A stretch of DNA of 64,000 nucleotides. Origin: Urmitella timonensis. Lineage in GTDB: Bacteria > Actinomycetota > Actinomycetes > Actinomycetales > Actinomycetaceae. This document shows positions 10,094 through 53,841 of the stretch, one piece after another. The notes under the pieces were generated by a model. The model was not told where the DNA came from, searched no databases, and was given only the letters and a program-made list of their open reading frames with translations. The position numbers and the translations under genes are program-made. The stretch lies in the NCBI GenBank assembly GCA_900120415.1, contig FQLW01000005.1, positions 1 to 64,000 on the forward strand, in the 5' to 3' direction. Within the stretch, counting starts at the first letter, position 1. Each line of letters opens with the position of its first letter.

Positions 10094-10925
10094 TGGCTGA
10101 ATTTGTGATGGTTGTTTGATGGCTCTTATTTGGTGGCTTGCGTTTTAGGGGTTTGTGTTTTTGGGGGTTTTTGTTTTTTTGGGGGTTTGTGCGGAGCCTT
10201 GTCTGGAGCTGGAGCCTTGGGTGCTGAGGACTTTGAACCCAGATTAAGTTGGCGTGTTGGTCGCGCTGTGTTGGTAGCGCCGGGTGGGTAGTGCCTGGTG
10301 GGAGTAGGATTCAGCGGAGCTAGCGATTGAGGACGGCTGTGCCGCCTGGTTGGGCGTTGCTGCCGGGTTGGGGAGGGTGATTTGGTCTAGGGAGGGTGGA
10401 AATGTCGGTGTCGTGCCTGGAACTGCTTGTGGGGGTGTGCAAAATCGCCCTCCCGTGACAGTTTCACCCTCCTGATTAAGGGCTGACGGCTTGTTTTGGG
10501 GGTTCTTAAGCGTTTCGGGAGGGTGATTTGGTCTTGGGAGGGTGGAATGGTTGGTGTCGTGCCTGGAACTGTTGGTGGGGGTGTGTAGAATTGCCCTCCT
10601 AATGCAGAATCGCCCTCCCGTGACAGTTTCACCCTCCTGATTAAGGGCTGACCGCTTGTTTTGAGGGTTTTAGAGCGTTTCGGGAGGGTGATTTGGTCTT
10701 GGGAGGGTGTTTTTGTCAGGCGTGGGCGGTTTGAATGCTGATTCTTGTGCTGTTCGTGCTTTGCGGATGCTCATTTTGGCGCAAGGGTACTCCTTAGAAT
10801 CCATCAAAGCTAATAGCCGGGATGTTCCTATCCTCGTCCTCCCCGCGAACACGCCCTAACCTAAGCCCGTTTGCGTTCTCGTCCTAATCTTTCCTGCTCG
10901 TCGTCCTCACCCGAAAATATGCTTC
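10094..10925 (+). other. Convergent intergenic region with 19-bp arrays
   Basis: This lies between two convergent genes. 10094-10370 is G/T-rich low-complexity sequence with several GGGGGTTT runs. 10371-10700 is a tandem pair and a half of array units, described separately. 10700-10925 contains only a 45-codon frame (10722-10859) without a ribosome site. I find no convincing gene. Confidence 0.6.
10371..10700 (+). repeat. 19-bp phased inverted array, locus 1
   Basis: Forward GGGAGGGTG cores start at 10371 and 10390, then at 10517 and 10536, then at 10681 and about 10700: pairs exactly 19 bp apart. Reverse-complement units sit head to tail at 10587-10605, 10606-10624 and 10625-10643, again 19 bp apart. 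Forward pair plus reverse block forms a unit of about 146-164 bp that is itself tandemly repeated. The spacer contains the shared phrase GTGTCGTGCCTGGAACTG. Confidence 0.85.
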
Positions 10926-12176
10926 TCAAAGCCGGGAATACCTCCGGGCTCTGCTTTCCCCATGCGCAAGAATTAACTGCTTATCTAGCAGGGAGTTCAG
11001 CAATCGGATTGTTTTTGACTTGTCAAAGCCAGAACGTAAATCCAGTTCAGAACGTGAATAGTACCTACCCCGCAGCATGGAATTTAGTAGCAGTTCTTCC
11101 TGGGGAGACATCTGCGATAACGAACCAATAAAAGGTAAAGTAACCGTAATGGAGTTATCTAAAAGCTCAAATTTGGGAAGCTCTTTTTCATCACGATAGG
11201 ACTCGCGAATACGCAAAATACCGGTCCCGAACTTCTCAATCAGTCCCAGACGAAAGAAAACCTCCGCCAAAATCGGGTTCCTGAGCACAGATACTCGTCC
11301 TCGTAAATACTCTTCCTTTGAAAGCCCAGTCGGAAGACCTCCCGGAGAACACACCTCGACGCGATCAGGGAAAATACTAACCCGTAAGCGAGAATTAATA
11401 TCCCAAGTCCGGTGAACCAAGCCGTTAGCGATTGCTTCCCGGAAAGCTTCGCGCGGAACCAAATCTTTGGTGAATCGGGTCGCGCCCTCAATCTTCTCAA
11501 AGCGCAAATAACGATCGAAAACCTCCATAGCGGTGTCTAGCTGCTGTAGAACAGAAACGTGCTCGACAGTGGTGCGATCCAAGATTTCGTTAATGGAAGC
11601 ACCGAACTTGATGATGTCGATTCCGGGATAACTGTTCTTATCGGACAATATGGCAGCGGCACGGTTGAAACCATTCGTCCCCATTAACCCCAAGGTTTTA
11701 AGAACATCTATGCTGGTATCTGAAATATCTAGCTGATCGTGAAGAGCTGCGGATAAAGTCTTAAACTCCAGATTTTTCTCGGGGGAGTCAAGTTCTTCAA
11801 AGGAGAGGTTCTCTCCCTCTAACACCAGGCGATTCAGCTCAATCCTATCGACTTCGACCGTGGAGCTGTCGCTCCTGCGGTACGCTTTCCCGTTGTAAAG
11901 GTAGGGTTTATTGGGACCTTCCTGCACGTGAAGACGGATAGTCCTGTCCTTTGGGTTTATCTGGATAGAAAATCTGGGACGTGGGGTAACACAGTCATTA
12001 ATGCGGTTTTCGATTGCGAGACAGGTTTCATCTAGGTGTTCAAGACCGACCTTGCTTCCCGTGTCATCAAATCCAAACAGTATTTCACCGTCATGGAAGT
12101 TCGCGTAGGCGCTTACAATCTTGAGGAAGGTGTTGCTGACTCTTGATTTGAACTCCAAGAATGCGGATTCTCGCAT
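10926..12176 (-). CDS. AlbA/Schlafen-type ATP-binding transcriptional regulator
   Basis: 416 residues on the minus strand; ATG with GGAGG seven bases upstream. The N-terminal ~110 residues resemble the Schlafen/AlbA_2 domain (LEFKSR...ANFHDGEILFGFDDTG). A middle helical region follows. A GHKL-like ATPase segment at about 235-330 has IANGLVHR, VEVCSPGGLPTG and GLIEKFGTGILRI, the signature of the HATPase_c_4 group. The C-terminus (about 355-416) looks like a winged helix. Such proteins are common in accessory regions, often as putative transcriptional regulators, and some Schlafen-domain proteins act in defence; the actual target is unknown. A 9-bp palindrome upstream suggests autoregulation. 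It is a single gene with no operon partner. Confidence 0.82.
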   Translation of the reverse strand: MRESAFLEFKSRVSNTFLKIVSAYANFHDGEILFGFDDTGSKVGLEHLDETCLAIENRINDCVTPRPRFSIQINPKDRTIRLHVQEGPNKPYLYNGKAYRRSDSSTVEVDRIELNRLVLEGENLSFEELDSPEKNLEFKTLSAALHDQLDISDTSIDVLKTLGLMGTNGFNRAAAILSDKNSYPGIDIIKFGASINEILDRTTVEHVSVLQQLDTAMEVFDRYLRFEKIEGATRFTKDLVPREAFREAIANGLVHRTWDINSRLRVSIFPDRVEVCSPGGLPTGLSKEEYLRGRVSVLRNPILAEVFFRLGLIEKFGTGILRIRESYRDEKELPKFELLDNSITVTLPFIGSLSQMSPQEELLLNSMLRGRYYSRSELDLRSGFDKSKTIRLLNSLLDKQLILAHGESRARRYSRL

Positions 12177-12995: not shown

Positions 12996-13157
12996 GGCTC
13001 AGGAGGGTGGAACTGTCTCGGGAGGGCGGAAGTGTCGGTGTTGTGGCTGTGGTGGCTTGTGGGGGTGTGCAGAATCGCCCTCCCCGGACAAAATCACCCT
13101 CCCGGTACAGGAACGCCCTCCGGCGCGGAGAAGGTGACAAAACACCCTCCCGCGCCG
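12996..13157 (+). repeat. 19-bp phased inverted array, locus 2
   Basis: Forward GGAGGG cores occur near 13002 and 13021. Reverse units follow at 13071-13089, 13090-13108 and 13109-13127, each 19 bp, with a further ACACCCTCCCGC near 13142. The spacer phrase GTGTCGGTGTTGTGGCTG resembles that of locus 1. Confidence 0.8.
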
Positions 13158-26372: not shown

Positions 26373-26451
26373 GCCTGATATTTGAAGTTTCCCGCCTGGG
26401 AAATGCCCTGTGGTTTTGGGTTTTTAGTGCTAGGGCGGTTTTGCGGGTCTA

Positions 26452-27390
26452 GGAGGGTGGAGTGGTTTCTGCTCTGCTGTGGTGTTGAGTTGGGAGGGTG
26501 GAAGTGTCTGGGGAGGGTGGAATGGTTGGGGGTGTGCTGGTTACCAGGAGTTTTGCTGGCAGAATCACCCTCCTGGTGCGGAATCACCCTCCTGATGTGG
26601 GACTATCTGTTGGGAATAGGTTTCTGTTGCTGGCTATGTGCTTTGTGGTTGCAGAATCGCCCTCCGGATACAAAATGACCCTCCCGGTACAAAATCGCCC
26701 TCCTGATTGTTTGGGTGATGCGGGATTTTGGAGGTTTTGACGGTCTGAGGAGGGTGGAGTGGTTTCTGGGCTGCTGTGGTGTTGAGTTGGGAGGGTGGAA
26801 GTGTCTGGGGAGGGTGGAATGGTTGGGGGTGTGCTGGTGAGCAGGGCTTTTGTTGGTGGAATCACCCTCCGGGTACAGAATCGCCCTCCGGATACAGAAT
26901 GACTCTCCGGGTGCGGAATCGCCTTCCGGGTTGTTTGGGTGATGCGGGATTTTGGAGGTTTTGACGGTCTGAGGAGGGTGGAGTGGTTTCTGGGCTGCTG
27001 TGGTGTCGAGTCGGGAGGGCGGAAATGTCTGGGGAGGGTGGAATGGTTAAGGGCGTGTTGGTTAGCAGGGGTTTTGCTGGTTGAATCGCCCTCCCGGTGC
27101 AGAATCACCCTCCCGGTTGTCTGGTTGATGCGGGGTTTTGCCGGTTTTGGGAGGGTGGAAGTGTCTTGGGAGGGTGGAGTGGTTAGGGGCGTGCTGGTTA
27201 CCAGGGGTTTTGCTGGTAAAATCGCCCTCCCGGTGCAGAATCGCCCTCCCGGTGCAGAATGACCCTCCCGGTGCAGAATGACCCTCCGGGTACAGAATCA
27301 CCCTCCTGATGTGGGACTATCTGCTGGGAATAGGTTTCTGTTGCTGGCTATGTGCTTTAAGCTTGCGGAATCGCCCTCCAGGTGCGGGAG
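26452..27390 (+). repeat. 19-bp phased inverted arrays, locus 3 (four consecutive units)
   Basis: Forward cores sit in exact 19-bp pairs at 26492/26511, 27013/27032 and 27149/27168, with singles at about 26452, 26750 and 26972. Reverse units run head to tail at 19 bp: 26653-26709 (three), 26858-26933 (four) and 27218-27312 (five, the best being AGAATCGCCCTCCCGGTGC at 27237-27255). The spacer phrase GTGCTGGTTACCAGG recurs between forward and reverse blocks. Larger units of roughly 180-300 bp repeat four times. A segment GTGGGACTATCTG plus ~50 bp occurs at both 26597 and 27312. Confidence 0.9.
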
Positions 27391-52190: not shown

Positions 52191-52602
52191 CTCGCGCCTC
52201 TTTTGGTGACGTTTTGACCCTCCCGGTGCAGTTGCGCCCTCCCGAGATGGGAAATGTGGTCGTAATTGGGGCGGTTTGCCGGTATTGGGAGGGGGATTTT
52301 GTCTCGGGAGGGCGGAAACGGCGCGTACTGCTGCAATCGGGAGGGTGATTTTGCCTGTGGAGGGTGGAATGGTTGGGAGATTGATTAAAACTGCTGGTGG
52401 AGTTTGGTAAAATCACCCTCCAGAGACGTTATGACCCTCCCGATTGGGCGGTAGAGCCTATTTATTGGTCATTTTGCCCGGATTGGGAGGGTGTTTTTGT
52501 CTTGGGAGGGTCAAAGCGCTCCTAAGGTGAGCGTTATTTGTTGGATATATGCCTGGAAGTTGTGGGTGTGGGGGTTGGTCGTCTCCTGTGTCGGGGTTGG
52601 CT

Positions 52603-52669
52603 CGGTAAAAGCACTCCGGGGACCCCGTGACCTGCTGCGCAGGTTAAGCCCCGTTCGTATCTTTTACCG
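52603..52669 (+). mobile_element. CGGTAAAAG-bounded cassette 2 (67 bp)
   Basis: Same 9-bp terminal inverted repeat. Inside are two small palindromes: CGGGGACCCCG and ACCTGCTGCGCAGGT (52630-52644). The whole can fold into a three-armed structure. Confidence 0.5.
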
Positions 52670-52973
52670 GCCGCGCCCCTTGCGTGTTTGGAAGCTGTGG
52701 ATGCAGGAGGACAAACTTTCCCCCTGCTTTTCCTGTCATTACTTCCGCATATTTACCCGCCGCGCCCTTTTTTGGTGACGTTTTCGCCCTCCCGGTGCAG
52801 TTGCGCCCTCCCGAGATGGCAATTGTGGTCGGAATTGGGTCGTTTTGCCCGGATTGGGAGGGTGCTTTTGTCTTGGGAGGGTCAAAGCGCTCCTAAGGTG
52901 AGCGTTATTTGTTGGATATATGCCTGGAAATTGTGGGTGTGGGGGTTGGTCGTCTCCTGTGTTGGGGCTGGCT

Positions 52974-53040: not shown

Positions 53041-53841
53041 GCCGCGCCCCTTGATGTTCCGAAATCCTACCCTTCGGCATAAAACTGCGCTCCGCATCTG
53101 CTTGGAAGAAACTTTTCCCCGCCCTTCTTGTCATTACTTCCGCATATTTACCGTCTGCGCCCCTTGCCTGTCTGAAAACTATGAGTGCGGGGGATAGTTT
53201 GTCCTCCTGCCCAAGAATTTGGAAAACGTGGCGGCGTTTTCCGAATTCTTATGCCCACCGCACCTACTCGGATCAAACTTTCCCCCGCCCCTCTGTCATT
53301 ACTTCCGCTTCTCTCGCTGACCCTGCCCTTGATATTCCGAAATCCTACCCTTCAGCATAAAACCGCGCCCCACCCTTCTGTCATTATTCCCACATCTTTT
53401 ACCGGCGTGCCCCTTTTTGGTGACTTTTTCGCCCTCCCGGTGCGGTTGCGCCCTCCTGAGATGGGAATTGTGGCAGGTATTGGGGTGGTTTGGCGGTATT
53501 GGGAGGGTGGTTTTGTCTCGGGAGGGCGGAAACGGCGCGTACTGTTGCAATCGGGAGGGTGATTTTGCCTGTGGAGGGTGGAATGGTTGGGAGATTGATT
53601 AAAATTGCTGGTGGAGTTTGGCAAAATCACCCTCCAGAGACGTTATGACCCTCCCGATTGGGCGGTAGAGCCTATTTATTGGTCATTTTGCCCGGATTGG
53701 GAGGGTGATTTTGTCGGTGGAGGGTGAAAGTGTTTCCCTGGTGGTTCTGCTTGCCTGGATATGTGCCTGAAAGTTGTGGGTGCGGGGGCGGTTTTGCCTC
53801 GCGCTTCCTCTCGTCTATGTCTCGCGTGTCGGGGGCTGGCT

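Follow-up and report, generated by a model that had tools for sequence, protein, structure and literature searches.

Recurring pairing of a putative nuclease gene with differing repeat arrays in actinobacteria suggests a self-spreading DNA element of a kind not yet described

The intergenic region between rluD and comEA in Urmitella timonensis (G000, the source genome) contains a composite array of 19-bp units, which raises the question of what kind of element such arrays represent and what reads them. The array lies within the 64,000 nt stretch of DNA that was analysed, called the window in the following, and the neighbouring rluD has its best named relatives in Actinomyces and Schaalia. An earlier reading made from the letters alone (the sequence-only reading) had proposed an undescribed array element that is probably read by a DNA-binding protein. 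This proposal held, and the candidate for the protein is an AbiEi-like/Vsr-like nuclease; throughout the genus, the gene for it lies between the same arrays.

Organization of the 19-bp arrays

By scanning with a position weight matrix (PWM), we delineated the composite array at positions 26451..27380, with 26 units in facing blocks. Its four modules are convergent, with a left arm on the forward strand and a right arm of inverse units on the reverse strand. Module 1 consists of two GGGAGGG-type units 19 bp apart (26492..26529) facing two inverse units (26562..26598), and is followed by three inverse units at 19 bp distance (26654..26714, reverse strand). Module 2 has two units in its left arm (26789..26826) and four inverse units, two of them degenerate, in its right arm (26859..26933). 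Modules 3 and 4 begin with two units each (27013..27050 and 27149..27186), facing two inverse units (27083..27119) and five inverse units arranged head to tail (27219..27312), respectively. A single inverse unit (27368..27386, reverse strand) marks the right end. All coordinates quoted in the sequence-only reading were recovered, namely the five units from 27219, the three from 26654 and the four from 26859, as well as its inverse pairs 26492/26511, 27013/27032 and 27149/27168, to which the missing pair 26789/26808 could be added. Its description of forward blocks facing reverse blocks applies to the window and genome-wide, where the arrays are likewise tandem and facing.

Four further array clusters lie in the window. 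The first (10371..10719, PWM scan) has 10 units in the order ++(46)--(62)++(65)--(62)++, where the numbers in brackets are distances in bp. The second (13001..13151) has 6 units near the metK-pilin spacer, which is array-bearing in congeners; the third (52206..52893) has 14 units, including two dispersed elements of the form '--(62)++', and the fourth (53420..53736) has 10 units and is a near-copy of 52206-52528. All clusters were intergenic wherever checked, and long arrays show secondary duplications with periods of 216-297 bp. Between two of the arrays lies a gene with AlbA_2/Schlafen-like and HATPase_c_4 domains (10926-12176), which is conserved in the congener G002.

The 19-bp unit is composed of the core GGAGGG[T/C]G and a conserved TG at positions 13-14. 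In the matrix of 367 units, position 0 is mostly G, positions 1-6 read GGAGGG (fixed by the way the units were collected), position 7 is a pyrimidine and position 8 is G (89%), followed by A/T at positions 10-11, T at 13, G at 14 (92%) and a pyrimidine at 15. The claim that one and the same unit occurs in both orientations stood for the core and the TG step, which forward and inverse units have in common, but not for the remainder of the 19 bp, which differs. Two patterns matched the window 15 and 24 times, compared to ~0.3-0.5 matches expected by chance, and a PWM score of at least 12 was reached by 68 units vs 0-2 in shuffled sequences. These are organized arrays and not simple sequence.

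The spacing between units is sharply quantized. Plotting the distances between cores revealed a clustering at exactly 19 bp throughout the source genome, with 114 '++' and 100 '--' neighbours (214 same-strand cases), while convergent neighbours are mostly 45/46 bp (or 26, 35, 65 bp) and divergent neighbours 62 bp apart. The congeners show the same values plus 65 (46 + 19), 81 (62 + 19) and 35/54 bp, which indicates that the units stay in a 19-bp register even when one of them is absent. The period proposed in the sequence-only reading as strict is, however, not universal, as '++' gaps of 33 and 41 bp recur too.

Several interpretations could be set aside. A CRISPR array would have identical repeats with unique spacers of fixed length, but here the units are contiguous at 19 bp and no spacer exists. 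A coding repeat was likewise rejected, in line with the earlier reading on both points, and so was a known RNA family, since an Rfam search of the window yielded a tRNA only and no match of the arrays to a described RNA family. The suggestion of very long RNA hairpins failed in a covariation test, as did that of a long DNA hairpin: the variable bases of facing units were less complementary than those of shuffled pairs. In convergent facing units (e.g., within 26492-27312), one unit has AA and its partner TT at positions 10-11. This rule held in 26 of 28 AA/TT cases in the source genome and in 13 of 16 in the congeners, the cases being mutually non-independent, and was not seen in divergent pairs. 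The AA/TT step of facing units thus lies on the same strand, so that a hairpin would have A-A or T-T mismatches at a fixed place. The rule may bear on the mechanism.

Distribution in the genus and differences between matching sites

A search for the 19-bp unit in the source genome (2.14 Mb) and its relatives yielded 131 tandem pairs in the former, compared to 0 for the reversed control pattern, in dozens of intergenic clusters across the chromosome. The genus comprises six species with genomes of 2.0-2.3 Mb. In the five congeners the arrays are present in low number, with 2-7 pairs each. In four of them most lie within a single ~60-kb region, whose counterparts in the source genome are window 10-14 kb, contig 1 592-607 kb and contig 2 84-107 kb. 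Only 4 of 207 other family genomes gave matches, with one or two GC-rich, chance-like hits each. The 19-bp arrays are restricted to the genus. We found no array match in IMG/VR, a phage collection and a plasmid collection, which speaks against phage-derived content.

The gap between rluD and comEA measures ~1.1 kb and contains the array in the source genome, whereas in all five congeners it is a short spacer free of repeats. From this comparison the array is most simply explained as an insertion gained in the G000 lineage, with parsimony favouring gain over loss. A minimal dispersed element of the form '--(62)++', ~119 bp in length, occurs at many sites, and isolated dispersed elements fold more stably as single-stranded DNA than shuffled sequences (z -2.3 to -4.3).

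Tandem units spaced at about two helical turns resemble replication iterons, and the sequence-only reading had drawn this parallel. That the arrays serve as iterons or as a partition centromere is nevertheless extremely improbable. They form dozens of dispersed intergenic clusters in one chromosome, none of which is tied to an origin gene, no plasmid matched them, and the absence of the rluD-comEA array from the congeners would be ill-suited to an essential site.

The largest array (L075:13390-15462; G000 C5:1215391-1217462) has 73 units with a 216-bp higher-order period and gaps of 33 and 26 bp, and is located close to genes for an aRib-repeat surface protein and the ribosomal protein S7. Contig 2 of the source genome ends (at 107175) ~0.26 kb past a long array at C2:106.9 kb, suggesting that arrays probably break the assembly. 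At the conserved metK array locus of congeners, a large cluster of LRR/SpaA-type adhesin and pilin genes adjoins the array (L186:11098-19928).

The flanked gene and its predicted protein

In all six genomes of the genus, arrays of the same 19-bp unit lie to either side of one single-copy gene. This gene is located at C2:101680-102747 in the source genome and shows 64-70% identity between species. In G005, which has the lowest number of arrays among the congeners, a frameshift interrupts it (L196 / G005:C5:149569-150632), reflecting either a decayed gene or a sequencing error. The other array-adjoining genes considered as partners (AlbA_2/ATPase at 10926-12176, AAA ATPase, NlpC/P60, LRR pilin-like adhesin, ribosomal S7 and others) were set aside, as among those annotated none was seen with arrays on both sides in every congener.

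Judged from profile matches, the protein combines an AbiEi-like N-terminal part with a C-terminal part of the Vsr/EDxHD/DUF559 nuclease type. AbiEi models of PADLOC matched 16 of 27 family members (best e-value 2e-10), and its methyl-directed restriction endonuclease (REase) models matched family members too. In a Pfam scan of the same 27 members, 17 matched the Vsr-type REase MTES_1575, 14 matched DUF559 and two matched RAP, while Y1_Tnp was not found. The G000 protein itself matched AbiEi weakly and MTES_1575 with 20.9 bits, which is under the Pfam cut-off of 38.2, so that both domain assignments rest on the family. In the alignment of 27 rows, E233, Q251, D265, E276, G279, K282, R301 and G309 are invariant and D278 nearly so. 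The pattern of a Vsr / PD-(D/E)XK active site can be recognized in these residues (E233, Q251, D265, E276-x-D278-G-x-x-K282, R301), and the alignment with PvuRts1I agrees. A PDB profile search gave weak matches to PvuRts1I (0.006) and to a mobile-intron endonuclease (0.08), in which the active-site residues were aligned. A single-sequence AlphaFold model of the homologue in L086 was too poor for use (pLDDT 45).

Looking for a linked AbiEii toxin at the G000 locus, we found two longer open reading frames beside the gene, which gave no hit or an AAA ATPase, and no gene was consistently linked to the nuclease gene. Searches of viral contigs for homologues returned a fragment only. A further possible reading is an anti-phage function, in which the arrays would be decoy, storage or self-marking sites that keep the nuclease inactive until infection. 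A nuclease joined to a DNA-binding domain is a common layout of defence systems, and the matches to the PADLOC AbiEi and methyl-directed REase models would fit. We nonetheless regard a defence role as improbable, given the lack of a consistently linked partner gene, the lack of array matches in the viral, phage and plasmid collections and the proliferation of arrays far from the gene.

Gene-repeat pairing across the phylum and comparison with known systems

DUF559 / 'AbiEi family' proteins are encoded by common, often multi-copy genes of unknown role in actinobacteria. Homologues with about 19-37% identity were identified in 109 other family genomes and, in the phylum, in 110 of 396 genomes. 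We sampled 64 family loci (63 distinct) and 29 phylum loci. Tandem motif copies 18-24 bp apart lie beside the gene in 28 of 63 family loci, compared to 1 of 64 control genes, with dominant periods of 19-22 bp and the motif on both sides in 21 loci. Among identical 8-mers in the flanks of family loci, the histogram of spacings peaks at 20 bp, with 295 cases and none in the controls. Comparing the 350-bp flanks on the two sides of each gene with one another and requiring agreement in at least 18 of 20 bases, we found matching flanks in 57% of family loci (36/63) and 59% of phylum loci (17/29), but in only 1.3% of control genes (3/239). At ~40% of the homologue loci the tests used detected no repeat match between the flanks.

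The typical layout of homologue loci is [->-> <-<-] gene [->-> <-<-], with a different motif each time; examples are CTGGGAACGT (19 bp), CGAACGCGCA (20), TCGCGGCGTG (21), AACCGGCGGA (22) and CGAGGTCCGC (23). The motifs differ from locus to locus and even among paralogues within a genome, as in G094, where two paralogues have different motifs and the arrays include AACGTCGAG and ACCGATTGAG, each beside a paralogue. The cognate repeat is dispersed in G094 (255 tandem pairs vs 8 for the control) and in G162 (389 units vs 0), and copies of the array without a gene occur at several places in G018. In the latter genome the whole cassette, consisting of the gene and both arrays, lies between topA and tmk. 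The corresponding sites of its closest relative G033 (flanks 91-93% identical) and of G052 contain neither gene nor arrays, which indicates that the gene and both arrays come or go together. The flanks at the compared sites are too diverged to define exact insertion junctions or target-site duplications.

This recurrence of a gene with its own repeat, across the phylum and with unrelated repeat sequences, argues against the view that recombination has expanded the arrays as satellite-like intergenic repeats (REP-like structural, terminator or nucleoid sites), with the gene merely among them. The stable single-strand hairpins of isolated elements and the secondary duplications in long arrays would agree with such an origin, to which we assign a low probability, similar to that of a defence role.

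Somewhat less remote, but still unlikely, is that the repeats are autoregulatory sites of an AbiEi-like regulator and the dispersed arrays its regulatory targets or passive amplifications, so that nothing would be mobile. AbiEi proteins autoregulate via two to four 23-bp inverted repeats in the promoter (PMC7319586), with which the repeat length, the facing arrangement and the upstream position agree. However, repeats were found downstream of the homologue gene as often as upstream, three genera have hundreds of copies at unrelated intergenic sites, the complete cassette comes or goes as one piece together with both flanks, and the nuclease residues are invariant.

The sequence comparisons establish the pairing of gene and repeat, its lineage specificity, the genome-wide dispersal, and differences between otherwise matching sites, at which arrays or a whole cassette are either present or absent. 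From these patterns, the 19-bp arrays probably serve as recognition ends of an undescribed mobile element and also represent its non-autonomous dispersed copies, which the Vsr-like nuclease would spread in trans. In this explanation, the gene sits at one vertically inherited locus in the genus, and the arrays have proliferated in the source strain. The autonomous form would be a cassette of ~1.3 kb with the arrangement [-> <-] gene [-> <-], and each protein lineage would have its own repeat of ~19-24 bp. The AbiEi-like part may read one unit per monomer, tandem units may load monomers side by side, and facing units may bring two complexes together across the spacer, as AbiEi does on pairs of 23-bp inverted repeats. 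The nuclease would then cut or nick at facing arrays, and repair or strand transfer would copy the array elsewhere, leading to spread in trans. Such a process could be transposition, homing-like gene conversion or another one.

We suggest a gene-plus-dispersed-repeat element with a real chance of representing a new class of mobile elements. The wider proposal, an actinobacteria-wide class in which an AbiEi-like/Vsr-type protein mobilizes both its own gene and, acting in trans, hundreds of copies without a gene via lineage-specific facing arrays of ~20-bp repeats, is more tentative, and we consider it somewhat less than evenly probable. If true, it would imply a transposition or homing chemistry not previously assigned to the Vsr-type enzyme fold. 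Full-text searches of open-access PMC retrieved no description of repeats beside DUF559/MTES_1575 genes. The sequence-only reading had named membership in a larger known mobile element as the outcome that would overturn it; a larger mobile element is indeed the probable context of the arrays, but no description of that element was found.

The closest parallel is the REP/RAYT system (REPtron), in which one gene is enclosed by inverted repeats and the same repeats are dispersed in facing doublets and clusters, the repeat type follows the gene type, and one gene copy can serve many repeats (PMC2817692). The present element shares these traits: its gene is likewise flanked on both sides (in 6/6 genus genomes and 57-59% of distant loci vs 1.3% of controls), with repeats in facing doublets or clusters genome-wide. 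However, RAYT belongs to the Y1 HUH transposases of the IS200/IS605 group, and REP units are palindromes of 20-40 bp, often with a GTAG head (PMC2817692). The flanked gene encodes no Y1 HUH tyrosine transposase; the matches of its product are to AbiEi and Vsr/DUF559 models. Instead of a palindrome with a conserved tetranucleotide head, the repeat is a bipartite 19-bp motif without palindromic symmetry, tandem and facing. The element thus works like REP/RAYT but is not a member, as enzyme fold and repeat type differ.

Characterized AbiEi proteins bind pairs of 23-bp inverted repeats (PMC7319586), and the AbiE (type IV) toxin-antitoxin system resembles the element in the AbiEi-like N-terminal part and in facing repeats of similar length. 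The differences are that a fused nuclease takes the place of the antitoxin domain and apparently also of a linked AbiEii toxin, and that repeats occur genome-wide as well as to either side of the gene. With EDxHD / Vsr-like homing endonucleases such as I-Bth0305I, the element shares a related nuclease domain, by a weak profile match, and a free-standing, sporadic gene. Homing endonucleases recognize one long unique site, which is disrupted by the inserted gene, whereas in the present element repeated sites persist to either side of the gene. An autonomous cassette with non-autonomous copies that share its ends is also known from insertion sequences with MITEs, but the present element has no transposase of known kind and each end is itself a facing array.

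The tie between the gene and its flanking and dispersed repeats provides a testable role for DUF559 / 'AbiEi family' genes, and the pairing explains a large class of unexplained intergenic repeats. The many natural pairs of protein and site, with repeats of ~19-24 bp, could allow a recognition code to be learned. Should the nuclease prove to move the repeats, the element would represent a second route to the REP/RAYT lifestyle, based on an unrelated enzyme, and a likely cause of rearrangement and assembly breaks in such genomes.

In Actinomyces culturomici (L086:15387-16404), the upstream flank of the nuclease-gene homologue resembles a transposase gene end and is free of arrays. Direct repeats of 42 bp (CGTGAAACCC...), which may be a doubled unit, flank the homologues in L237 and L239.
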